Below the pieces are notes generated by a model. The model had not been told where the DNA came from. It made no database searches and worked only from the letters and a program-made list of their open reading frames with translations. Of a DNA stretch of 64,000 bases, positions 49,940 through 62,209 are shown piece after piece. How positions within the stretch are numbered: the stretch's first letter is position 1; every line of letters starts with the position of its first letter. The translations under genes and the position numbers were made by a program. Source of the stretch: Spirochaetales bacterium (GTDB taxonomy: Bacteria > Spirochaetota > Spirochaetia > Sphaerochaetales > Sphaerochaetaceae); NCBI GenBank assembly GCA_018433865.1, contig JAHDQJ010000004.1, forward strand, positions 62,001 through 126,000, in the 5' to 3' direction.

Positions 49940-50663
49940 GCCGAGACTCCGCGGTGTGTGCGGTCTCGAGAGCGACACGTGCCATCGGACCCATCGCCTC
50001 CATCCGCGTGCGGTCATCCAGGGATGCCCCTGTGACACAACAATCGGTCATGGTGAGTATGGAGAGGGCTCGCTTGCCCATATAAGCCGCAACGCTATAG
50101 AGCGCGTATGTCTCCATGTCCTGGGCAATCGCTCCCATGTGTGACCACGCTTTCCAGCTTTGCTCTCCCAGGGCATTGTAGGAGGAAAAGAGGTCACTGG
50201 AAAATATCATCCCCGCGTGGATGCGAAACCCCAGCTTCCTCGCTTGGCCAAGCGCTGTCTCGAGCAAGGGGAAATCTACGGGAGGACTGTAGCTTCCATG
50301 CAATCGGTACTGATGTGCCCAGTTGCCATCGGTACTCGCCGTGAGGGCGAGTATGAGGTCTCCCGGAACGATCCGTTCGGAAAAACCCCCGCACGTGCCG
50401 ATCCTGATGATCGATTCCACTTTATAGTGCGTGTACAGCTCGTAACTGTAGATACCTGCGGATGGGCCGCCCATGCCGCTTGACATGACGCTTACCCGCT
50501 CGTTGCGGTAGGTACCGGTGAACCCTCGCATGCCCCGCACCGAGGTGACCTCGCGTGCATCGGTGAGAAAGGAGCTTGCCACCCATGCGGCACGGTCGGG
50601 GTCTCCGGGGAGCAGCACCGTCGGAGCGATTTCCCCGATCGCTGCCTTGTTATGGGGTGTCAT
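49932..50663 (-). CDS. deoD: Purine nucleoside phosphorylase, DeoD type (copy 2)
   Basis: A 243-residue phosphorylase with VLLPGDPDRAAWVASSF, GMGGPSAGIYSYEL, RIGTCGGF and AIAQDMETYALY in place of the copy 1 specificity helix (Asp for Val before Met). The catalytic region is TMTDCC, Cys replacing the usual Leu. It shares one operon with the importer, its start overlapping the permease stop by one base. Substrate preference probably differs from copy 1. Confidence 0.92.
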   Translation of the reverse strand: MTPHNKAAIGEIAPTVLLPGDPDRAAWVASSFLTDAREVTSVRGMRGFTGTYRNERVSVMSSGMGGPSAGIYSYELYTHYKVESIIRIGTCGGFSERIVPGDLILALTASTDGNWAHQYRLHGSYSPPVDFPLLETALGQARKLGFRIHAGMIFSSDLFSSYNALGEQSWKAWSHMGAIAQDMETYALYSVAAYMGKRALSILTMTDCCVTGASLDDRTRMEAMGPMARVALETAHTAESRHA

Positions 50664-51571
50664 CAGGAGGCTCCTTTCACATACGGCTTTCCGTTCGCAC
50701 GAGGTGCATAGTTCTTCCCGCTGAAGACGACGAGAGCGATCAACGTGATCACATAAGGCAGGATGTTGAATACTTCGGTGGGGAGTACCCGGAGTGCAGG
50801 AAAGTTGTTTGCGATGATCGCGAAAGCCTGTGCGGTACCGAAGAGGAAGGCGGCGAAGGTAACGCCGACAGGCCTCCAACGGCCGAACGATACGGCGGCG
50901 AGCGCGATGAATCCACGTCCGTTGATCGTATTGGAGGTGTATTGGATCGTCTGGGTAAGCACGATGCATCCTCCGGCAAGCCCTGCGAGGAGTCCGCTGC
51001 TGAGTACTGCGATATAGCGGATCCGCTTTACATTGATACCGACACTGTCGGCAGCATGCGGATGCTCCCCGCACGCCCGCAGGTGCATCCCGAACGGCAA
51101 CTTGTAGAGAACGAACCACGCGAGAAGTACCACGATCACCGCGATATAGGCGGTGGGATAGATCCCCAGCTTGTCGGTCTGCATGCCCATCTTGAACTCA
51201 CGGGTCCTGTCTGCCGAGAAGAGTATCTGCGCCGCGAAGATCGTCACGCCATCCGCGAGAAGGTTGATGCCGGTACCGCTGATGGTCTGGTCAGCGTTCA
51301 GGTTGATCGCCGCGACCGCGTGAATGGCACTGAACGCTGCGCCGATGAGCGCTCCTATGGCAAGGGAGAGCCAGATCGAAGGCATCCCCAATCCTGCGGA
51401 CTCCATGAGTACGTGAGCCGAGGCAGCGGCACATGCGCCGATGCCCATGAGCCCTTCGAGGGCGATGTTCACCACACCCGATTTCTCGCTGATCATGCCT
51501 CCTACGGCGGTGATGAGGATGGGAGAGACAATCATGAGGACGGAGGGAATCATGCCGATGAGTGTGTTCAT
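50663..51571 (-). CDS. Nucleoside ABC transporter permease (COG1079 type)
   Basis: A 302-residue inner-membrane protein with 8-9 helices, with SEKSGVVNIALEGLMGIGA and the ALAAVSFGRWRPVGVTF motif of the simple-sugar/nucleoside (BmpC/NupC) permease group. It pairs with the next upstream permease. ATG 51571 with AAGGAGG overlaps that gene by 4 bp. Confidence 0.93.
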   Translation of the reverse strand: MNTLIGMIPSVLMIVSPILITAVGGMISEKSGVVNIALEGLMGIGACAAASAHVLMESAGLGMPSIWLSLAIGALIGAAFSAIHAVAAINLNADQTISGTGINLLADGVTIFAAQILFSADRTREFKMGMQTDKLGIYPTAYIAVIVVLLAWFVLYKLPFGMHLRACGEHPHAADSVGINVKRIRYIAVLSSGLLAGLAGGCIVLTQTIQYTSNTINGRGFIALAAVSFGRWRPVGVTFAAFLFGTAQAFAIIANNFPALRVLPTEVFNILPYVITLIALVVFSGKNYAPRANGKPYVKGAS

Positions 51572-52686
51572 TTTGCCAATACCTCCTTCTGCAACTGTCT
51601 CTTGCTGCGCCATGCGAGATAGATGGCTATCGCAGAGCGAAGTGCGATGAAGACGACGATGAGGCCTTGGATGATGAAGGTGATCTCCTTCGGTATCTGC
51701 TTGCCTTGCATGAGTGCCTGTGCGTTTTTGAGCATGCCGAAGAGGAATCCCGCGAGCATCGTTCCGATTGCCGTGTTGTTACCGACCAGTGCGACCGCTA
51801 TGCCGTTGAATCCGTAATTGTCCATCCCTGCCAACACCCGTCCGTAACGGAATGATCCGAGCGCCACGATACCTCCGGCAAGTCCGGCGAACGCACCTGC
51901 GATGGCCATGGAGATCGCGATGCTCTTGACCACCGGGATGCCGCTGCACCGGGCCGCCTCACGGTTGAAACCGGTTGCTCGCAATCCGAAGCCCAGATTC
52001 GTCTTCTCCATGATGAACCAGTAGACCACCACGGAGAGTAACATCAGGTAAAATCCGTTGTTCAGCATCGAGTTGTTGGTGAGCGATCGGAACAATCCGT
52101 TTGAAAGCAACGCGGTTTCCGGATAGTTCGCAGTCTTGTACGTGGTCGCTCCGGGAAGCTGCAGGCAGATGATGCGTGAGAGGTAGAGAGCCACGTAGTT
52201 GAGCATGATCGTCGAAACAACCTCAGAGACCTCGAACTTTGCTTTCAGCAGTCCGACGAGACCTCCCCAGACGGCTCCTATGCACATGGCACCGAGGATG
52301 GCGAGCATCCAGTGCAGGCCGGCGACATTCGGACCGAGCAATCCGATGACCTGTGCCACAGTCAGTCCCATGATGTACTGACCCTCTCCCCCAATGTTGA
52401 ACAATCCCGCACGCGCGGCGAACGCCATCGAGAACCCGCAGAGGATGAACGGGACCGCATAATTCAGTGTCTCTCCGATATACCGGACGTTCATCTTTCC
52501 GTTGTCGACGTTATAACCGCTGAGAGATTGCAAGATCGCCTTGTACATGTTCAGCGGATTCTTGCCGACCATCCAGACCAAGATCGTCCCGACCAGAAAT
52601 CCGAGCAACACGACCAGGACCGAGACTGCTCCGTCGGATCCGAGCAGACGGTTGGTGAAGGATTCCCGCCTTTCCAGTGATCTCAT
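51568..52686 (-). CDS. Nucleoside ABC transporter permease (COG4603 type)
   Basis: A 372-residue permease with about 10 helices and the motifs RAGLFNIGGEGQYIMG, VSTIMLNY and GIAVALVGNNTAIGTM typical of the BmpB/NupB group. Overlaps the ATPase gene by 4 bp. With its partner it forms the channel that receives nucleosides from the BMP lipoprotein. Confidence 0.93.
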   Translation of the reverse strand: MRSLERRESFTNRLLGSDGAVSVLVVLLGFLVGTILVWMVGKNPLNMYKAILQSLSGYNVDNGKMNVRYIGETLNYAVPFILCGFSMAFAARAGLFNIGGEGQYIMGLTVAQVIGLLGPNVAGLHWMLAILGAMCIGAVWGGLVGLLKAKFEVSEVVSTIMLNYVALYLSRIICLQLPGATTYKTANYPETALLSNGLFRSLTNNSMLNNGFYLMLLSVVVYWFIMEKTNLGFGLRATGFNREAARCSGIPVVKSIAISMAIAGAFAGLAGGIVALGSFRYGRVLAGMDNYGFNGIAVALVGNNTAIGTMLAGFLFGMLKNAQALMQGKQIPKEITFIIQGLIVVFIALRSAIAIYLAWRSKRQLQKEVLAK

Positions 52687-54215
52687 GCCTCACCTCCTTC
52701 CCGTCGTGATCCGGCCATCATCATACCGATCTCCCGTTCCGATACTTCATGTTGCGCGAAGATGCCGACGATGGATCCCTTGCTGATCGTGGCGATCCTG
52801 TCGCAGAGATTCATGATCTCGTCGAGTTCGAAGGAGATGAGGAGTATGCCCCGTCCCTTGTCCCGCTCGGCGATGATCCGATGTCTGATGTACTCGATCG
52901 CACCGACATCGAGCCCTCGGGTAGGCTGGGCGATCAGCAACACATGCGGCGAGAGGTTGATCTCCCTCGCGACGATCGTCTTCTGTTGGTTTCCTCCCGA
53001 GAGACTGCCCGCTTTCGTCTTGGATCCCTGGCCCGCACGGATATCGAATTGAACGATCAGTTGGCTGGCATCCGCCTCCATTCTCTTCTGATCGAGCAGT
53101 CCATACCTGTTGCTGTAGGGTTTTTGGTAGTAATTCTTCAGGATGCAATTCTCCGCGACGGAAAAATCGCTAACCATGCCGTGTTTCTGCCGGTCCTCCG
53201 GAATGTGCCCGAGACCGAGTTCGATGCGTTTCCTGATCGTCGCTTTCGTGATGTCCTGACCGTCGAGGAGGATCGTCCCGGAAGCTACCGGAGAAAGACC
53301 CGCCAAACCGTAGAGCAACTCTGTCTGTCCGTTTCCATCGACTCCGGCGATCCCTACGATCTCACCTTTGTGCACCTCGACGGAAAGGTCGCGTACCTTC
53401 AGGTGGCCGGCTTGGTCGGCAACCGAAAGGTTTTTGATCGAGAGGACCACCTCACCGATTCGAGCCGGTTTCTTCTCGATCTCGAACTCGACCGCTCTTC
53501 CCACCATCATCTCAGCCAACTGCTGCTCAGAAACATCGGCGACATCGACGGTACCGATGCAGGCACCCCGGCGCAGTACCGTGCAACGATCTGCGACCGC
53601 CTTGATCTCCTTCAGCTTGTGGGTGATGAGCACGATGGTCTTTCCCTCTTCCTTGAGCCTCCGGATGATCTGGATCAACTCTTCGATCTCCTGGGGAGTC
53701 AGCACTGCGGTCGGTTCGTCGAAGATGATGATGTTCGCATTCCTGTAAAGCGTCTTCAGGATTTCGACACGCTGTTGTGCACCGACCGTGATATCCTCGA
53801 CCAATGCTTTGGCATCGACCTTGAGTCCATAGGTTTCCGACAGCTTGGCGACCCGCTTCTCAGCCCTGCCGATGTCGAGCAGGCCGAGCCGACGTGTCGG
53901 TTCCATGCCGAGCACGATGTTCTCGGTGACCGTATAGTTGTGTACCAACTTGAAGTGCTGGTGGACCATCCCGATCCCGAGTTCCGTGGCGACGTTCGGA
54001 TCCTTGATGTCCACCTCTTTCCCATGGATGCGAATGGTTCCGCTGTCGGCATTGTATGCACCGAAGAGGATGGACATGAGGGTCGATTTCCCTGCTCCGT
54101 TCTCTCCCAGGAGCGCGTGGACCTCTCCGTCGGCGACACGGAGTGTCACCTTGTCATTCGCAACCACACCGGGAAAGGTCTTGGTGATGCCGATCATCTC
54201 GATGGCGTGTTCCAC
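52683..54215 (-). CDS. Nucleoside ABC transporter ATPase, two-domain (COG3845 type)
   Basis: A 510-residue protein with two ABC domains. The first has GENGAGKSTLMSILFG and FDEPTAVLTPQE; the second, degenerate half has VDGNGQTELLYGLAG and LSGGNQQKTIVAREI. This is the usual ATPase of PnrA/BMP-type importers for purine nucleosides or simple sugars. A hairpin separates it from the upstream binding-protein gene. Confidence 0.94.
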   Translation of the reverse strand: MEHAIEMIGITKTFPGVVANDKVTLRVADGEVHALLGENGAGKSTLMSILFGAYNADSGTIRIHGKEVDIKDPNVATELGIGMVHQHFKLVHNYTVTENIVLGMEPTRRLGLLDIGRAEKRVAKLSETYGLKVDAKALVEDITVGAQQRVEILKTLYRNANIIIFDEPTAVLTPQEIEELIQIIRRLKEEGKTIVLITHKLKEIKAVADRCTVLRRGACIGTVDVADVSEQQLAEMMVGRAVEFEIEKKPARIGEVVLSIKNLSVADQAGHLKVRDLSVEVHKGEIVGIAGVDGNGQTELLYGLAGLSPVASGTILLDGQDITKATIRKRIELGLGHIPEDRQKHGMVSDFSVAENCILKNYYQKPYSNRYGLLDQKRMEADASQLIVQFDIRAGQGSKTKAGSLSGGNQQKTIVAREINLSPHVLLIAQPTRGLDVGAIEYIRHRIIAERDKGRGILLISFELDEIMNLCDRIATISKGSIVGIFAQHEVSEREIGMMMAGSRREGGEA

Positions 54216-54276
54216 TGTGTTTCCTCCCTGAACCTTCCGTCCTGAAACCTGACTTGGCCCCGATTTCCGGATAGAA

Positions 54277-54303
54277 GTGGTGCGCCGTTCTACGGCGCAC
54301 CAC
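54277..54303 (-). terminator. Strong intercistronic hairpin after the BMP gene
   Basis: A perfect 11-bp stem (54277-54287 with 54293-54303), loop TTCTA, lies in the 118-bp gap between the binding-protein and ATPase genes. No U-run follows on the minus strand, so it is more likely an mRNA-stabilising or partial-termination element than a full terminator. Confidence 0.6.
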
Positions 54304-54333
54304 AGGTACGGTCATGACAACTTGGTGCGTTGA

Positions 54334-55494
54334 TCAGTCATCGAGGGCTGCAAGTCCGGCAGGAGCCGCACCAGCGGCAAGCGCGTCCTTGTAGGTTCCG
54401 TAGATCTTGATCGTCCCGTTGATGACATCGGCCTTCGCTGCATCCACTGCAGCGACGACTTCAGCCTTCAGTTCCGGATTCGCCGTGGAGTAGCCGACAC
54501 CGTCGTCGGACATGGTCATCTTGACGATCTTGCCGCTGAAGGAACCTTCCTCGACGGCATTCAGGCAATAGAGGGATGAGTTCTCGACCTTCTTGAGCAT
54601 CGAGGTCAGGACGGCCGACTTGGTGCCTTCATAGATACCATCCTCGTATTGGTCGCTGTCCACACCGATTGCCCAGACGTTCTTGCCCTGCAACCGATAC
54701 TCCTTCGCCTGGGCGATGGTTCCGTTTCCGGTACCGCCTGCCGCGGAGAAGATTGCGTATACGCCGCTGTCAAACCAGTTCTTCGCCTGTGCTTTTGCCA
54801 GCTCCGGCTTTCCCCAGTCGTTCGCGTAGTAGTCGACGATCTGTGCGTTCGGGAACACCGAGAGGATACCCTGCACATAACCCATCTCGAACTTGGTGAT
54901 CGTGGCTCCGGGGACTCCTCCGATGAAGCCGAACCGGGGATTCGCGATACCTTCGGCCTTAGCCTGCAACGCGGCGGCAAGACCGACTAGGTAGGAACCT
55001 TGCTCCTCACTGTAGATGAACTCCATGACGTTGGGCTGACCGACCCAGTCGACATCGACTATCACGAAATTCTGATCGGGATAGAGCGGAGCGACTTCGC
55101 CGAGCGCGTCTGCCCAGGTGAATCCGGTGACCATGATGATGTCATACCCTTCATCCGCAGCCTGTTTCAGGTTGGGGATATACATGTCCTGGGTCTGAGC
55201 GGTCACGACATCGTAGTACTTGCCGCGGTTCGGGGTGTTTGCGACCGTATCGCCATAGAACTCGACTATTCCCCTCCACGCTGCCGCGTTGAAGGACTTG
55301 TCATCGATTCCCGTGGCATCGGTGAGCAGCCGGATGGTCGGCTTGGCCTGGACGGCTGGTGCCGGAGCTGCCGGTGCAGCTGGGGCTGGGGTTGCGGCGG
55401 GGGCGGTTGCCGTGGCAGCCTCCTTCTTCCCGCAAGAGACCATGACGAGGGCGATAGCAAGCACCATCAACCCTACATACAGAGCTTTTTTCAT
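54334..55494 (-). CDS. BMP/PnrA-family nucleoside-binding lipoprotein
   Basis: A 386-residue lipoprotein: signal peptide ending VMVSC with the lipidated Cys near residue 21, then an Ala/Pro-rich linker of about 25 residues, then the binding fold (TDATGIDDKSFNAAAWRGI, MVTGFTWADALGEVAP, GFIGGVPGATITKFEMGY, FSAAGGTGNGTI and IGVDSDQYE). PnrA proteins of spirochaetes bind purine nucleosides. AAGGAG precedes the ATG. It heads the operon and is separated from the tRNA-Val terminator by about 145 bp. Confidence 0.94.
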   Translation of the reverse strand: MKKALYVGLMVLAIALVMVSCGKKEAATATAPAATPAPAAPAAPAPAVQAKPTIRLLTDATGIDDKSFNAAAWRGIVEFYGDTVANTPNRGKYYDVVTAQTQDMYIPNLKQAADEGYDIIMVTGFTWADALGEVAPLYPDQNFVIVDVDWVGQPNVMEFIYSEEQGSYLVGLAAALQAKAEGIANPRFGFIGGVPGATITKFEMGYVQGILSVFPNAQIVDYYANDWGKPELAKAQAKNWFDSGVYAIFSAAGGTGNGTIAQAKEYRLQGKNVWAIGVDSDQYEDGIYEGTKSAVLTSMLKKVENSSLYCLNAVEEGSFSGKIVKMTMSDDGVGYSTANPELKAEVVAAVDAAKADVINGTIKIYGTYKDALAAGAAPAGLAALDD

Positions 55495-55638: not shown

Positions 55639-55667
55639 AAAAAGCCGGATACCCGAAGGTACCCGGC
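55639..55667 (-). terminator. Intrinsic terminator of tRNA-Val copy 1
   Basis: On the minus strand GCCGGGTACC, tetraloop TTCG and GGTATCCGGC (55644-55667, one G-U) are followed by five Us (55639-55643). It lies 4 bp after the tRNA 3' end. Confidence 0.85.
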
Positions 55668-55671
55668 GAGT

Positions 55672-55743
55672 TGGGCGGTATTGGATTTGAACCAACGACT
55701 TCCACCATGTCAAGGTGGCACTCTCCCACTGAGTTAACCGCCC
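55672..55743 (-). tRNA. tRNA-Val (GAC), copy 1
   Basis: A 72-nt cloverleaf: acceptor GGGCGGT/ACCGCCC, discriminator A, anticodon stem CCACC/GGTGG and loop TTGACAT with anticodon GAC (valine), T arm GTTGG/CCAAT with loop TTCAAAT. CCA is not encoded. It has its own promoter and terminator. The second copy at 58058-58129 is identical at 70 of 72 positions and in the same orientation. Confidence 0.95.
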
Positions 55744-55766
55744 GTTGATTCTTGTGACTGGAAAAC

Positions 55767-55795
55767 ACTATACCGTAATCATCGAATCCTGTCCA
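55767..55795 (-). promoter_or_regulatory. Promoter of tRNA-Val copy 1
   Basis: On the minus strand TGGACA (55790-55795), a 17-bp spacer and TATAGT (55767-55772) lie about 24 bp before the tRNA. The other copy has the same -35. Confidence 0.6.
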
Positions 55796-55802
55796 TATAC
55801 AC

Positions 55803-55831
55803 TTGATAACTTGGCCGAACTGAAGTAATCC
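55803..55831 (+). promoter_or_regulatory. Promoter of the dgcNA pair
   Basis: TTGATA (55803-55808), a 17-bp spacer and TAATCC (55826-55831) precede an AGGAGG site and the TTG start at 55867. It lies back-to-back with the tRNA promoter. Confidence 0.45.
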
Positions 55832-55866
55832 TAACTTGCAGGTCTCGAATTGACAGGAGGTGCGTC

Positions 55867-56949
55867 TTGAAAGACGGAAATGCATTGGTATATTGCGACG
55901 AGATGTTCGATACGATATGGGGAAAGACCGCCCACGGACTGGTCCGTTTCACCAAGCGCTACGATGTGCTCGGTGTCATCGATCGGAACCACGTGGGAGA
56001 GGATGCGGGAAAGCTTCTCGACGGGAAGGCCTCGGGAATCCCCATCTACGCCGACCTTGAGTCGGGCATGCACGCGTGTGCCGCGATGGGCAAGCCTGTC
56101 ACGCATTTCGTGTTCGGACTCGCCACCGATGGTGGCCGACTCACCGCGAAAATGCGTGCCGACTTGCTGCAGGCCTTGGAACGGGGCTTGCATGTCGATT
56201 GCGGGATGCACTACTTCCTCTCGGATGATCCGGAAATGCAGGCGGCAGCCAGACAAAGTGGAGCAGTCATCCGGGATATCAGGAAGACACCGCCCAGACA
56301 TGAGCTGCACGGCTACACGGGACGGATCAAGGAGGTCGGATCATTCAGGATCGCGATGTTCGGGACCGACTCTTCGGTCGGCAAGCGTACCACCGCCTGG
56401 AAACTGGTCGATGCCTTCAATGCCCGCGGCATCAAGGCGGAAATGATCGGTACCGGTCAAACCGCCTGGCTGCAGGGAGCGCGCTATGGCGTGCGCATGG
56501 ATGCCCTGATCAATGATTTCGTCGCGGGGGAGATCGAGAACGCGATACTCGAGGCTTGGGATCATGAACGGCCCCAGGTGATGGTGATCGAGGGCCAGGG
56601 GAGCCTGATGAACCCGATTTACCCCGGAGGATTCGAGATCCTCAGCGCAGGACAGCCGCACGCGGTCGTGATGCAGCATGCTCCTCTCAGGGTCGACTAC
56701 GATGGCATTCCCGGGACTCCCGTACACCCGTTGAAAACCCAGATCCAAGCGGTCGAGCTCCTGAGCGGGAAGCCGGTAGTAGCGATCACGATCAACCACG
56801 AGCACATGAAGCCGCAGGAGATCGATGCGCAGTGCGCCAAACTGGAAGCCGAAACTGGATTGCCGACCACGGATGGCCTGTCAGGCGATCTCGGCCCGAT
56901 CGTCGAAGTACTGGTCAGGATGATGGAGACACAGGGGGGAGTGGCATGA
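55867..56949 (+). CDS. dgcN: DUF1611 family protein, probable D-glutamate N-acetyltransferase
   Basis: A 360-residue DUF1611 protein. Residues about 1-155 form a Rossmann-like domain (GVIDRNHVGEDAG, FVFGLATDGGRL); the C-terminal half has a P-loop-like IAMFGTDSSVGKRTTAWKL, then GTGQTAWLQGARYG and MVIEGQGSLMNP. In the described DgcN-DgcA pathway this family acetylates D-glutamate with acetyl-CoA, and the partner epimerase follows, exactly as here. The start is TTG 55867 with AGGAGG at 6 nt. Its stop overlaps dgcA by 4 bp. Activity on D-glutamate is inferred from the pairing. Confidence 0.75.
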   Translation: MKDGNALVYCDEMFDTIWGKTAHGLVRFTKRYDVLGVIDRNHVGEDAGKLLDGKASGIPIYADLESGMHACAAMGKPVTHFVFGLATDGGRLTAKMRADLLQALERGLHVDCGMHYFLSDDPEMQAAARQSGAVIRDIRKTPPRHELHGYTGRIKEVGSFRIAMFGTDSSVGKRTTAWKLVDAFNARGIKAEMIGTGQTAWLQGARYGVRMDALINDFVAGEIENAILEAWDHERPQVMVIEGQGSLMNPIYPGGFEILSAGQPHAVVMQHAPLRVDYDGIPGTPVHPLKTQIQAVELLSGKPVVAITINHEHMKPQEIDAQCAKLEAETGLPTTDGLSGDLGPIVEVLVRMMETQGGVA

Positions 56950-58016
56950 GGATTCTCTCCTGCGAAGTCTGGCCGGTCGAGCTTACCTTGGAAGAACCGT
57001 TTGTCATCGCCTATTCGACGATGGAAAGGGCGGTGAACTATTTCTTGCGCATCGATACCGATGCCGGCATCTCCGGATTCGGATGCAGCGCATTCGACGA
57101 AGAAGTCACCGGTGAGAACGAACGTACCGTCGGGACTGCACTCAGGGAGATTGCGGTTCCCCTTCTGATCGGCGAAGATCCGCTCTCGTACGCATCGATC
57201 CTCGAGCGCCTGCATCATCAGATTCCCGACCAACCCACCGCGATGGCATCGGTGGACATGGCCTTGCTCGATATCGTGGGGAAGAAGGCCGGCTTGCCAC
57301 TGTACAAGCTGCTCGGAGGGGCGCGTCATGCGATCAAGAGCAGCATCACCATCGGTATCCAGCCGGTCGATGCTGTCGTCTCGAAGGCAGTGATGTGGAC
57401 GGACAGGGGATATCGCGCACTGAAGATCAAGTGCGGAATCTCCGTCGAAGAGGACATCGAGAAGCTGCACAAGGTCCGTGAGCGTGTGGGAAGGGAAGTG
57501 GAAATCTACGTCGATGCGAATCAAGGGTATGATATCCAGAGTGCCCTCCGGTTCATCCGTGCTGTCGATTCCCTTGGCATCGAATTCATCGAACAGCCCT
57601 GTGACAAACGAAAACCGGATGCATTCTCCGTGCTCAGGGAACGCTCCGGTGGGACCGTTCCGCTCATGGCCGACGAAGCGATTCTCGGGCCTGAGGATGT
57701 CTTGCACCTCATCAAGGCCGGAGGAGCGGACCTGTACAATATCAAGCTCGCGAAGACAGGAGGCATCTGGCGTGCACGCCAACTCGATGCCGTCGCCGCT
57801 GCCGCCGGATCGGCTACGATGGTAGGATGCATGGACGAGGCAGGCCTCGGGATAGCGGCTGCCTTGCACATGGCGCTCTCCAGCACGAACGTCCGTTACG
57901 CCGATCTGGACGGACACGTGGAGTTCATCGATGATCCCTCCTACGATGCGGTCCGGATCAAGGACGGATTCGTCTACCCGAACGAGAGCCCGGGCTTGGG
58001 CTTCTCCTTTCCCTGA
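56946..58016 (+). CDS. dgcA: Enolase-superfamily epimerase, probable N-acetyl-D-glutamate racemase
   Basis: A 356-residue dipeptide-epimerase-like member of the enolase superfamily. It has the catalytic KIKCG pair (ALKIKCGIS), metal ligands in YVDANQGY, IEQPC and MADEAI, and the second catalytic lysine in NIKLAKTGG, with the C-terminal MVGCMDEAG. Annotated relatives racemise L-Ala-D/L-Glu, but next to DUF1611 proteins it racemises N-acetyl-D- to N-acetyl-L-glutamate. The 4-bp overlap with dgcN strongly supports that pairing. Confidence 0.8.
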   Translation: MRILSCEVWPVELTLEEPFVIAYSTMERAVNYFLRIDTDAGISGFGCSAFDEEVTGENERTVGTALREIAVPLLIGEDPLSYASILERLHHQIPDQPTAMASVDMALLDIVGKKAGLPLYKLLGGARHAIKSSITIGIQPVDAVVSKAVMWTDRGYRALKIKCGISVEEDIEKLHKVRERVGREVEIYVDANQGYDIQSALRFIRAVDSLGIEFIEQPCDKRKPDAFSVLRERSGGTVPLMADEAILGPEDVLHLIKAGGADLYNIKLAKTGGIWRARQLDAVAAAAGSATMVGCMDEAGLGIAAALHMALSSTNVRYADLDGHVEFIDDPSYDAVRIKDGFVYPNESPGLGFSFP

Positions 58017-58023
58017 CAGCATG

Positions 58024-58050
58024 AAAAAGCATCCTCGATCCCGAGGATGC
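58024..58050. terminator. Terminator of tRNA-Val copy 2, possibly bidirectional with dgcA
   Basis: A perfect 9-bp stem GCATCCTCG/CGAGGATGC (58029-58037 with 58042-58050), 4-nt loop. On the minus strand five Us (58024-58028) follow; on the plus strand TTTCTTC follows. It can end both the tRNA transcript and the dgcNA transcript, 12 bp after the dgcA stop. Confidence 0.8.
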
Positions 58051-58057
58051 TTTCTTC

Positions 58058-58129
58058 TGGGCGATATTGGATTTGAACCAACGACTTCCACCATGTCAAG
58101 GTGGCACTCTCCCGCTGAGTTAACCGCCC
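58058..58129 (-). tRNA. tRNA-Val (GAC), copy 2
   Basis: The same cloverleaf as copy 1, with anticodon GAC, differing at two positions: one in the D region (C for T) and one in the acceptor 3' strand, where ATCGCCC gives a G-U pair. CCA is not encoded. Orientation is the same as copy 1, 2386 bp away, with the dgcNA pair between them on the opposite strand. Confidence 0.95.
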
Positions 58130-58140
58130 GCGCACGATGC

Positions 58141-58169
58141 ACCTTAAAGGAAAAATCGGGTTATGTCCA
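58141..58169 (-). promoter_or_regulatory. Promoter of tRNA-Val copy 2
   Basis: On the minus strand TGGACA (58164-58169), a 17-bp spacer and TAAGGT (58141-58146) lie 11 bp before the tRNA. Its -35 is the same as copy 1 and its -10 is weaker. Confidence 0.5.
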
Positions 58170-58280
58170 GTATCCTGCACCGGCATGTTGTCCGATGTGA
58201 AGCCACCAGGGGCACTGCACGTTTCATGCTGTTGCTGTTGTGCCGTTTGCGCCGTACACTGTGCACAGGAGGATACGGAA

Positions 58281-59765
58281 TTGGCAACGTTTCAGACCGA
58301 TGTGCTGACATCGCTTGGCCGCGTACGGGGAACGACGGATCATCGGACGTGCAGTTGGAAGGGCATTCCCTATGCGCTCCCGCTGGAAAGCCGATTGCGG
58401 TTCTCACCACCCGAACCGCTTGCCAGGTGGAACGGAACCTTGGATGCAAGCAGGTTCGGCAGCATCGCACCACAGAGGAGCCTGCTGCGCACGAAGGTGG
58501 GTCCCGATTGCCTGACTCTGAATATCTGGAGTCCCGCTGCCGATGCCAAACGACGTCCGGTACTCTTCTTCATCCACGGGGGAGCGTTCTCCCACGGTGC
58601 AGGCAGCGAATCGTTCTATCATGGCGCATACCTTGCATCGAGGTGGGATATCGTGGTCGTGACCTGCAACTATCGCCTGGGCATATTCGGGTTTCTCGAC
58701 TTCTCCCTGCTGGACGGCAGCTGTTCGGGGAACAATGGGCTCAGGGATGTCCTGACCGCCTTGCGCTGGACGCATGACCATATCGGTGACTTCGGTGGCG
58801 ATCCGCAGAACATCACCATCGCAGGACAATCGGCCGGGGGGACGATGGTCAGCGCGTTGGCATCGATGCGCGATACGCACAGGCTCTACAGACAGGCTAT
58901 CATGATGAGCGGGGGGCCGACACAGCTGCAATCGCGCGATAGCTGCCGTATAAGTTCCGAGGCATTTGTCACCCTCAACGGGATCGAAACCTGTAATGAG
59001 CTGTATGCGGCCGATTTGCAGGATCTGGTGACGAAGCAGAAGCGGTTCATGCGAAAGCATGGCTTGGGAGCGGCAACCTTCAGGATTACCGTCGATGAGG
59101 ATCTCGTGCACGAGTTTCCGATCGTCGCCGCCCGGAAAGGGGTCATGGACCATCTTCCCTTCCTCATCGGTACCACGAAGGAAGAGATGGGATTCATGGC
59201 GATCAAGCCTTTGGCACGCCTGATCGATGTCGGGAATATCGTCAACAAAGGATTGGAGGAGGAAGATCCGCAGATACGGCAGGAGCTTCTCGACACGTAT
59301 GTCGCACTGTATGGCGAGGATCGTGGGATCCCCATGATGTATACGGACTTGCTGTTCCGCATCTCGAGTACATGGTTCGCACGGAACGTGGCCAGCGGCC
59401 AGCATGCGTGGATGTACCGGTTCGACTATGAGACGCAGATTCTCAGGATGAATGGATTCCACGCGATCCACTCCTCGGACCTTCCCTACGTGTTCGGCAA
59501 TTTCAAAACCGCGCTGGTCAGGCCGATGTTCCTTTTGACTCCCGACATGTCGCAGGTACGGGCGGTGGCGGATGAAGTACAGCAGGACATCGTGAGCTTC
59601 ATGCGAGAGGGATCGTTGCCCTGGGACCCCTGCACCGACGAGCATCCGCTGGGAAAATGTTATGACGATCCTCCCACGATAGGGGAGATGGTGGACCGAA
59701 GACTTGATGCTCTTCACGATCGTACCCGATACAAGTACCGCAGCTTCCACGGCATCTCACTCTGA
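58281..59765 (+). CDS. Type B carboxylesterase
   Basis: A 494-residue alpha/beta hydrolase. Oxyanion loop FIHGGAFSHGAGS, nucleophile elbow TIAGQSAGGTMVSAL, the acidic residue region GTTKEEMGFMA and the catalytic histidine in GFHAIHSSDLPYVFGN. No signal peptide is present with this start. TTG 58281 is chosen because CAGGAGG lies 8 nt upstream; the frame is open further back but the upstream residues (a run of cysteines) look non-coding. Substrate unknown. It is divergent from tRNA-Val copy 2. Confidence 0.88.
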   Translation: MATFQTDVLTSLGRVRGTTDHRTCSWKGIPYALPLESRLRFSPPEPLARWNGTLDASRFGSIAPQRSLLRTKVGPDCLTLNIWSPAADAKRRPVLFFIHGGAFSHGAGSESFYHGAYLASRWDIVVVTCNYRLGIFGFLDFSLLDGSCSGNNGLRDVLTALRWTHDHIGDFGGDPQNITIAGQSAGGTMVSALASMRDTHRLYRQAIMMSGGPTQLQSRDSCRISSEAFVTLNGIETCNELYAADLQDLVTKQKRFMRKHGLGAATFRITVDEDLVHEFPIVAARKGVMDHLPFLIGTTKEEMGFMAIKPLARLIDVGNIVNKGLEEEDPQIRQELLDTYVALYGEDRGIPMMYTDLLFRISSTWFARNVASGQHAWMYRFDYETQILRMNGFHAIHSSDLPYVFGNFKTALVRPMFLLTPDMSQVRAVADEVQQDIVSFMREGSLPWDPCTDEHPLGKCYDDPPTIGEMVDRRLDALHDRTRYKYRSFHGISL

Positions 59766-59836: not shown

Positions 59837-59865
59837 TTCACCTTCCCGGTGTTGTCTGCTATAGT
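59837..59865 (+). promoter_or_regulatory. Leaderless-type promoter of the phospholipase-D lipoprotein
   Basis: TTCACC (59837-59842), a 17-bp spacer and TATAGT (59860-59865) stand 7 nt before the ATG at 59873, with no Shine-Dalgarno site between. Confidence 0.55.
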
Positions 59866-59872
59866 CTCCCAT

Positions 59873-61159
59873 ATGGATTTTCGCAAGCTGAAGAATGCTG
59901 TCACGATCCTCTTGTGCTCCTGTGTCCTGTTGGTCTCCTGTTCCACGACCGGTAATCTGGAGCGATTGGTTGCACAGGGAACCACAGCTGAAGAGCTTTT
60001 GCGCAGCGTGGGAATCGCATCATATCCCTCCACGCTTCCCCACTACTACAATACGGGGGCAGCGTGGAACGCACGTTCCCTCGAGCTGATCGCACAGGCT
60101 CAGGATTATATCTTGGTCTCCACCTTCCTCGGTGTCGAGCATCCGTCGGTCCAACCTGTCTGGCAAGCGCTCGCGGACAAGGCTCGATCAGGAGTGCGAG
60201 TGTATATCATCATCGACTCATCCTCGAACTTCCAGATGGTGCCGCTCTCCAAGGAACGGATCAAAGCCGCCTACATGCAACTGCAGGAGATGGGATTGGA
60301 GGTGGTCGAGTACAACTCGCTCTCCCTGAGCAACCTGTTCTTCATCCCGAAGCTGTTTGACCGGGACCACCGCAAGTATTGGGTCATCGACGGCAAGGTG
60401 TTGGCAGTCGGTGGGGTGAATGTGAACCATACCTCGATCGATTGGCCCGAGGGAATAGGGAATATCGACACGATGGCGGAGATCGTATCGCCCGGTGCAA
60501 GTGCACAAGTGATCGAAACCTTTGTCGACACATGGAACAACCATGCTCCCAAGAAACTCTTGCGAGAAGACTTTACGGTCCCTGAGGTTGAGCTCGCTAC
60601 AGCGGCAGGGGTCACCACGGTACATCTTCTGGATCACTACTGGCCATCGGTTTCCCAAGTCTCCACACTGTTCGATCTCTTCAGCGTCTCGGCGACGAAA
60701 GAATTGTGGATGATCCAAGGGTATACATTCCTGACACCTGCGTTGCTCGACCGCATCCGGTTCGCAGTCGGACGGGGTGTTGAAGTTCACATCATGCTTT
60801 CCGAATTCTCATCGCAACCGAAGTATGAGATGGCATCCCGGTACGGAGTGCTGGACCTCCTGGAGGCGGGGGCGACCGTATACATGTATCGATCTCCCGA
60901 TGGAGCGTTCCTCCATGCGAAGCTCATGGTCGCCGATGGCAAACTGGTGACCATCGGCAGCGCCAACTACAATTTCAGGTCCCAGACGCTCTCCCGCGAG
61001 ATGAACTTCATCTTCGAAGATGAGCGGATCGGAACCTATTCCATGCAGTACATCCGCGAATTGCTCGGACACTGTCGGATCGTCACCCGGCAAGAGGCTG
61101 AATCGTATCGGAACATCCGCTCGTGGTACAACTACGTGCTCATGCAGATCTGGGGGTGA
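59873..61159 (+). CDS. Phospholipase D-superfamily lipoprotein
   Basis: A 428-residue protein with a lipoprotein signal (CSCVLLVSC, lipidated Cys near residue 23). Two HKD sites: DRDHRKYWVIDGKVLAVGGVN and HAKLMVADGKLVTIGSANYN, as in cardiolipin synthase, but it lacks the two N-terminal membrane helices of the 11.6-kb cls. It probably acts in the periplasm on phospholipid head groups or other phosphodiesters. It heads a three-gene run with two small exported proteins. Confidence 0.85.
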   Translation: MDFRKLKNAVTILLCSCVLLVSCSTTGNLERLVAQGTTAEELLRSVGIASYPSTLPHYYNTGAAWNARSLELIAQAQDYILVSTFLGVEHPSVQPVWQALADKARSGVRVYIIIDSSSNFQMVPLSKERIKAAYMQLQEMGLEVVEYNSLSLSNLFFIPKLFDRDHRKYWVIDGKVLAVGGVNVNHTSIDWPEGIGNIDTMAEIVSPGASAQVIETFVDTWNNHAPKKLLREDFTVPEVELATAAGVTTVHLLDHYWPSVSQVSTLFDLFSVSATKELWMIQGYTFLTPALLDRIRFAVGRGVEVHIMLSEFSSQPKYEMASRYGVLDLLEAGATVYMYRSPDGAFLHAKLMVADGKLVTIGSANYNFRSQTLSREMNFIFEDERIGTYSMQYIRELLGHCRIVTRQEAESYRNIRSWYNYVLMQIWG

Positions 61160-61162
61160 TGG

Positions 61163-61690
61163 GTGAGACACATCAAGCTTGCGATCTTGGCTGTCATGCT
61201 TCTTTTCAGCATGGATTCCTTCCTGGCTGCTTCCCCGTGGGTCGCCGGATACCGTGTCGGTCTGGATGGGTATGATGTGCCGACGATCTCCACGGACGAA
61301 TACTGGTCCGCATCACTTTTCGCCGACCTGATGCCGACCAGCCGGTTCTCCCCATCGGTTCATGTGGGGTTCCTGCTTCCTCCCTATCCGTTTGAAGAGG
61401 CGGCATATGCAACGGCAGGCGCAAGCATACCGTTGGCTTATTGGCTTGGACATCCGTTGCGATCGCTGTTCAGGAGGGATAGTGCCTATGCCCCGGTGTT
61501 CGGAGTGCAGGCCTTGTTCGATCTTGGACACATGCGCTTGGGTGGCGGCTCGGCCAACTTGCAGCCGTTGCGTTTCGATTTCGGGGACAAACAGGTTGGC
61601 ATCCTCTCAATCCAACTTGTCTACGATACGGTTGCCGACCAGTGGGGTTGGGGCCTTCGCATATTCGAGATCTCCCATTATCTGTGGTAG
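61163..61690 (+). CDS. Small exported protein, unknown function (1)
   Basis: A 175-residue protein with a signal peptide (residues 1-23) and then alternating aromatic-rich strands, ending IFEISHYLW. It looks like a small outer-membrane barrel or a lipid-binding periplasmic protein. GTG 61163 starts 3 bp after the phospholipase gene. I recognise no family. Confidence 0.65.
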   Translation: MRHIKLAILAVMLLFSMDSFLAASPWVAGYRVGLDGYDVPTISTDEYWSASLFADLMPTSRFSPSVHVGFLLPPYPFEEAAYATAGASIPLAYWLGHPLRSLFRRDSAYAPVFGVQALFDLGHMRLGGGSANLQPLRFDFGDKQVGILSIQLVYDTVADQWGWGLRIFEISHYLW

Positions 61691-61696
61691 GAGAAA

Positions 61697-62209
61697 ATGA
61701 TGAGACGCCTGCGATGCACCATGATCTTGCTCCTCTTCATCTCCCTCTCCCTTTCTGCTGGTCACCTCGGTCTTTCGATCGGGACTTTCGGCAACGGCTC
61801 TTCAGGGTTGTTCGGCACGGGGACTCAGGTCCAGGGAGGTCTGGTTTTCGGGTTTGCTCCCCGTTGGGAGACGGAACTGTTCGTCATCACGGCTGCTACT
61901 GCCGATCCGTTCTCCCGGACCATCGGCGGCGTGGGAATCTCCTATGCGGTGGTGAGTCCTGTGTACACACAAAAAGAGGTTCCCTCCTACGGGAACACTT
62001 CCGTGGGATTCGGTTTCATGGGTGACATTGCCGATCTTTCAAGCTACGGACCGTTCTTGCGCGTGACCCCCGTGGCAGTCGGAGGGCCGCAGTTCAAGTT
62101 GCGTGAACGGGCGGTGACGTTCGGTACCTACTACGACGTGCCGAACAAGTCATTCACACTCTTTTGGAACGTATTCATGCTTGATTTCTTCATCAGCCGA
62201 TCTTCCTGA
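61697..62209 (+). CDS. Small exported protein, unknown function (2)
   Basis: A 170-residue protein with a signal peptide (residues 1-21, ending SLSAG) and a Gly-rich run of alternating strands (LSIGTFGNGSSGLFGTGTQ and VSFGFMGDIADLSSYG-like repeats), ending MLDFFISRSS, as in small outer-membrane barrels. It follows its neighbour by 6 bp, and both probably work with the phospholipase lipoprotein in the outer membrane. Function unknown. Confidence 0.65.
   Translation: MMRRLRCTMILLLFISLSLSAGHLGLSIGTFGNGSSGLFGTGTQVQGGLVFGFAPRWETELFVITAATADPFSRTIGGVGISYAVVSPVYTQKEVPSYGNTSVGFGFMGDIADLSSYGPFLRVTPVAVGGPQFKLRERAVTFGTYYDVPNKSFTLFWNVFMLDFFISRSS

Follow-up and report, generated by a model that had tools for sequence, protein, structure and literature searches.

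A dgcN–dgcA gene pair between two tRNA-Val genes in a spirochaete genus: probable old relocation into a tRNA site and homogenisation of the flanking tRNAs

The window, a 64,000-nt stretch lying inside a 312-kb contig, belongs to a spirochaete genome of 2.9 Mb (G000). Its sole tRNA genes according to ARAGORN are two copies of tRNA-Val(GAC), here called tRNA1 and tRNA2, which stand on the same strand, are both complete and agree at 70 of 72 positions (2/72 differ). The 2.3-kb interval between them holds dgcN and dgcA alone, read on the other strand, an arrangement that had been proposed in a sequence-only reading and that ARAGORN and Rfam confirm. Three species of the window's genus were compared (G000, G001 and G002); further genomes include G003, from a sister genus, and G022 and G126, relatives in a genus termed g21. 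The features of the locus, in window coordinates, are the following.

54334–55494, minus strand: BMP-family substrate-binding lipoprotein, landmark on the tRNA1 side (family match and synteny)
55644–55667, minus strand: T1, intrinsic terminator of tRNA1 (folding against shuffles, z −5.9)
55672–55743, minus strand: tRNA1, tRNA-Val(GAC) on the dgcN side, probably the copy added in the genus (ARAGORN; Rfam tRNA, 67.5 bits; promoter type)
55766–55797, minus strand: P1, tRNA1 promoter, TGGACA-17-TATAGT (conserved at 28/32 positions in G001 and G002, 27/32 in G003)
55803–55831, plus strand: dgcN promoter, TTGATA-17-TAATCC (sequence reading; spacing and TAATCA box the same in G001, G002, G022 and G126)
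55867–56949, plus strand: dgcN-like gene, 360 aa, DUF1611_N and DUF1611 (P-loop) domains (Pfam)
56946–58016, plus strand: dgcA-like gene, enolase superfamily, dipeptide/N-acyl amino acid epimerase type (domain and structure-database matches)
58018–58057, minus strand: T2, terminator stem between the convergent dgcA and tRNA2 (folding against shuffles, z −5.4)
58058–58129, minus strand: tRNA2, tRNA-Val(GAC), probably the resident (ancestral) copy (ARAGORN; Rfam tRNA, 63.5 bits; neighbours as for the single tRNA-Val of G022 and G126)
58140–58171, minus strand: P2, tRNA2 promoter region, TGGACA-17-TAAGGT, weak −10 (orthologous to P2 of G001 and G002)
58287–59765, plus strand: carboxylesterase (a homologue, 49% identical, also adjoins the single tRNA-Val in G126)
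59849–61159, plus strand: cardiolipin synthase-like PLD protein, empty-site landmark (synteny)
61163–62209, plus strand: two Omp-like genes (61163–61690 and 61697–62209), empty-site landmarks (synteny)

The two protein genes overlap in an ATGA, and their promoter is divergent from P1, starting 7 nt past its TGGACA box. Each tRNA had been credited with its own promoter and terminator. Both terminators fold far better than shuffled sequences and P1 is a good promoter, while P2, weak in the window, is identified chiefly through its conservation in G001 and G002. The 3′ end of tRNA2 is directly adjoined by T2 and the end of dgcA, which places the block on the 3′ side of this tRNA gene. Across 54–60 kb, the tRNA pair is by far the longest repeat (73 nt, bounded by the gene edges), and a repeat search at the block edges gave no inverted repeats and no direct repeats besides the tRNAs. 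The inter-tRNA interval leaves no room for an integrase or IS and contains neither, which bears out, for these 2.3 kb, the earlier remark that the tRNAs are the only trace of this kind.

The DUF1611 protein is related to PDB entries 7xrj, 2g0t and 2obn, and the nearest structures to the enolase-superfamily protein are the dipeptide epimerases 3rit, 2p88, 3jva and 1jpm. The description of the genes as a D-glutamate pair agrees with their domains (DUF1611; MR_MLE) and adjacency but not with the NCBIfam equivalog cut-offs: the DgcN model matches the first protein at 162 bits against a cut-off of 480, and the DgcA model matches the second at 131 bits against 400. Because these scores fall far under the cut-offs, the label applies by homology only. 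In the outgroup genome G052 (L086 7019–10963), an amidohydrolase gene precedes dgcNA. Its product, which we take to resemble N-acyl-D-amino-acid deacylases, matches a general amidohydrolase subfamily of NCBIfam under the cut-off, and its place beside dgcNA hints at the substrate class. From the homologues and this neighbour, the pair is predicted to have a likely role in D-glutamate or N-acyl-D-amino-acid metabolism. DgcN and DgcA would act on D-glutamate itself or on its N-acyl or dipeptide forms, and both tRNAs would be ordinary working valine tRNAs.

All three species of the genus (3/3) carry tRNA–dgcN–dgcA–tRNA at one syntenic locus, and no other dgcN locus examined outside the genus is flanked by both tRNAs. 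On the tRNA1 side, every congener has the BMP lipoprotein gene and its ABC genes; G001 and G002 have in addition genes for a PiT transporter and a DUF47 protein between BMP and tRNA1, and in G002 the two sides are on different contigs, both of which break off at the PiT/DUF47 genes. The PiT gene beside tRNA1 had raised the suspicion of a different location in G001 and G002, which is ruled out by the BMP gene just beyond. The tRNA2 side has the PLD gene, the two Omp genes and an MBL-fold gene in all congeners, with the esterase ahead of PLD in G000 and a porin-like gene ahead of it in G001 and G002. Draft assemblies can duplicate tRNA-bounded contigs, yet an assembly duplication, or a chance proximity of the tRNAs, has practically no probability here: it is refuted by the same block in the separately assembled G001 and G002 and by the position of the window inside a 312-kb contig. 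The BMP-type ABC transporter itself (lipoprotein, ATPase and two permeases; 50663–55494, minus strand) finds its nearest NCBIfam names in a putative B6 transporter, under the cut-off.

Outside the genus, the site occurs without the gene pair. The single tRNA-Val(GAC) is divergent from PLD–Omp–Omp in G022, with the MBL gene also present, and from esterase–PLD–Omp–Omp in G126, and neither genome has dgcNA there. It is oriented to the landmarks as tRNA2 is, and its 3′ side carries other DNA (cas1–cas2 in G126). In both genomes, dgcNA lies elsewhere, adjoining a gene of the Na+/H+-antiporter family. Among the family matches listed, tRNA-Val(GAC) is single-copy except in the window's genus, G123 and G102, the last two each having one copy at a contig start. 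Relatives with one tRNA-Val and no pair at this site are what the sequence-only reading had suggested looking for, and they support insertion. The site in G022 and G126 has a single tRNA and is free of dgcNA, which speaks for an insertion 3′ of tRNA2. The pair and a second tRNA were probably set there in the ancestor of the genus, the empty site being the evidence for the insertion itself.

The tRNA2 neighbours are those of the single tRNA-Val(GAC) in g21, and we regard tRNA2 as the likely resident gene, with tRNA1 having come with, or been made by, the insertion event. For P2 of G001, the closest promoter outside the genus is that of the single tRNA gene in G007 (23/32), a tRNA-Val that a distant porin homologue adjoins. 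For P1, the closest is that of the single tRNA-Val in G003 (27/32; next best 21), and outside the window's genus a P1-type promoter occurs in G003 and in no other of 61 genomes. Going by this common promoter, the second tRNA may predate both the genus and the pair. For the gene adjoining the G003 tRNA, the window's genus offers no close match. With G003 92% and G005 85% complete, it is uncertain that either truly lacks a second tRNA or dgcNA. The sixth acceptor pair of tRNA2 is a G-U, once taken to suggest an older duplicate or a partial copy. Both copies are complete, and G-U stands at that pair in 19 of 58 distinct family tRNA-Val(GAC) loci, G003 included; we reject it as a mark of age or decay and regard it as a common family state.

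Within the family, dgcN is confined to the three genomes of the genus and two of g21, being absent from the other 134 of 139; class-wide, it occurs in 36 of 395 genomes. Maximum-likelihood trees of DgcN and DgcA unite the genus and g21 in one group (bootstrap 99 in both). G052, whose family is the closest by rpoB, branches off next in the DgcA tree and, in the DgcN tree, is one of those that branch off next. Both trees agree with that of rpoB, in which the neighbouring family comes next after the genus and g21. The dgcN promoter (−35, 17-nt spacer, TAATCA) is common to the genus and g21, and the GC3 of dgcNA is that of the neighbour genes. A recent horizontal gain is ruled out by the trees, GC3 and the promoter. 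Viral contigs searched for dgcNA gave no relative, phage records gave distant partial matches only, and plasmids gave only homologues under 60% identity. The earlier proposal had been that integration next to a tRNA, or recombination between tRNA copies, delivered the pair. Insertion beside a tRNA holds up; delivery from a foreign source does not, as the trees follow the species tree (99% bootstrap with g21) and all congeners carry the arrangement. By its sequence relationships, dgcNA appears not to be foreign but a long-standing resident that changed its place, or to be no younger than the clade. We read the insertion as an old relocation inside the lineage, as opposed to a recent cassette.

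A pair that follows the species tree, in relatives that all carry the same two tRNAs, had been named as the sign of an ancestral arrangement. This is what is found at the level of the genus, while the empty site is found outside it. An ancestral block might nevertheless be extended further back, with tRNA–dgcNA–tRNA standing at the PLD site and being lost, by tRNA–tRNA recombination or otherwise, in G022, G126, G003 and G005, and with dgcNA moved in g21. The gene trees do track the species phylogeny as far as the neighbouring family, the 72-nt direct repeat is a ready substrate for deletion, and P1 in G003 indicates that the tRNA1 type was present earlier than, or beyond, the window's genus. 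We nonetheless consider this history unlikely: it requires several independent losses and a relocation in g21, the dgcNA genes of g21 and the outgroups sit in unrelated contexts without tRNAs, and 134 of 139 family genomes have no dgcN.

Within each genome, the two tRNA bodies are nearly or fully identical (2, 0 and 0 differences in G000, G001 and G002), although between G000 and G001/G002 they differ at 13–15 positions, identically in both copies. Of the 13 changes in G001 and G002 relative to the window's tRNA2, ten fall in stems, and all 21 stem pairs are kept. The 70 nt upstream behave differently: at the same position, identity between G000 and the others is 0.77–0.81 for tRNA1 and 0.70–0.71 for tRNA2, but copy against copy within one genome it is 0.56–0.66, close to the shuffle mean of 0.59. 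The tRNA copies thus cluster by genome and the upstream flanks by position, with copy-specific promoters; downstream, the pattern is less clear. This sequence pattern points to homogenisation of the tRNA bodies by repeated gene conversion limited to the gene, and independent parallel change of both copies does not explain it. Because the copies convert one another, the near-identity of tRNA1 and tRNA2 is no evidence of recent duplication, a warning that applies to such pairs of tRNAs. The tRNA-Val(GAC) genes of G001 and G002 (L081 9110–9181 and 11528–11599) carry a T arm whose other occurrences are in the tRNA-Val(TAC) genes of further genera of the family and, imperfectly matched, in the tRNA-Val(CAC) of a single distant genome. 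An arm swap is possible, and no donor could be named from the tRNA-Val(TAC) and tRNA-Val(CAC) matches.

In this family, integrative elements insert 3′ of tRNA-Val(GAC), and in one case the whole tRNA was duplicated. In G021, the gene is followed after 59 nt by the start of a complete tyrosine integrase. In G074, the distance to the integrase start is 115 nt, and tRNA nucleotides 43–72 recur as a perfect 30-nt copy 21.3 kb on; this 21-kb integrative element (L238 5055–6510, L247) has a typical 30-nt att pair. G123 (L134 69–140, L135 5264–5748) contains the whole tRNA-Val(GAC) with about 56 nt of leader twice, with two mismatches, and one copy is followed by a truncated integrase. Elsewhere in the window's genome, tRNA-Val(CAC) on contig C43 (28943–29014; L146 4943–5014, minus strand) has an intact 459-aa tyrosine integrase 121 nt away on its 3′ side, together likely an integrative element; no tRNA-end repeat of at least 15 nt was found within 28 kb. 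The dgcNA block in the window's genus has no integrase, no att core shorter than the tRNA and no other element gene. Since element remnants are absent there, we infer the route and mechanism of the insertion.

Two more detailed courses bear on that route. A Campbell-type integration, a specific form of the insertion reading, would involve a circle of P1–tRNA–T2–dgcA–dgcN crossing over with a resident P2–tRNA–T1 inside the tRNA. One such crossover predicts the observed order P2–tRNA2–T2–dgcAN–P1–tRNA1–T1; G003 has P1–tRNA and a GGCAA-type terminator as a unit, and G123 illustrates a whole tRNA-Val gene duplicated with its leader beside an integrase gene. However, GGCAA-type terminators are so common in the family that they identify no donor, and neither a circle nor an integrase was found, leaving this form rather improbable. 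The other course dispenses with a mobile element: a chromosomal rearrangement brought the BMP/ABC side next to the PLD side, duplicating tRNA-Val, and dgcNA entered the gap later by ordinary rearrangement. It is possible but doubtful. BMP adjoins a Crp-type gene in G003 and G005, so that the BMP–tRNA join is new in the window's genus, and the genes just outside the tRNAs differ between G000 and G001/G002, in keeping with a generally fluid locus; yet a gene content that stops exactly at the two tRNAs, and the placement of the insertion on the 3′ side, which is the side elements use, go unexplained.

We favour, with a probability of about 0.7, relocation into the tRNA site in the genus ancestor, followed by vertical inheritance and homogenisation, the insertion account resting on three species of the genus. 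The resident dgcNA operon of the lineage, with its own promoter, would have been moved to the 3′ side of a single tRNA-Val(GAC) adjoining the esterase/PLD/Omp cluster, and a second complete tRNA-Val(GAC) with another promoter would have arrived together with it. The likeliest route would be recombination through tRNA sequence at the site that family integrative elements use, with subsequent loss of any integrase. The block would then have been inherited vertically while gene conversion homogenised the tRNA bodies and not the flanks. Against this account, att duplications are typically partial tRNA ends (30 nt in G074), whereas the copy here is complete and has its own promoter. A wider conjecture, which we think quite unlikely, is a mobile unit of the family that bears its own complete tRNA-Val and enters by crossover in the tRNA body, gene conversion then keeping the bracketing tRNAs identical and the cargo excisable, with one intact tRNA left.

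The DgcN–DgcA pathway of D-glutamate (PMC10845958; NCBIfam NF041892, NF042940) likewise pairs adjacent genes for a DUF1611 protein and an enolase-superfamily epimerase, but the window's proteins lie far under the curated cut-offs and their substrate is a predicted one. Integrative elements and genomic islands are known at tRNA 3′ ends, such as PAI II536 at leuX (PMC3202238), as are prophages at tRNA genes in Haloquadratum (PMC3119063). As in those systems, the block starts 3′ of a tRNA and ends in a tRNA direct repeat, with an empty site in relatives. Unlike them, it is fixed in the genus and consists of two metabolic genes only, with no integrase; its far repeat is not a 20–45-nt end but a complete 72-nt tRNA under its own promoter, and its cargo has a vertical phylogeny, not a sporadic or foreign one. 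Duplications and insertion hotspots at tRNA loci of E. coli (tRNA-Tyr duplication; pheV; PMC11739808) resemble the locus in the gain of a full tRNA copy. They differ in that the window has two protein genes between the copies, in a fixed state. Repeated genes such as rrn operons evolve in concert by gene conversion. Here, too, copies within a genome are more alike than orthologues between species and the flanks are not, though the tract here spans one 72-nt tRNA gene at either side of a 2.3-kb operon. The kinds of process are known and the instance is new. It offers a worked case of a metabolic operon made permanent at a tRNA insertion hotspot, its traces of mobility gone and its empty site identified, and a compact bacterial example in which concerted evolution stays within a 72-nt tRNA gene, with multi-base compensatory change in both copies.
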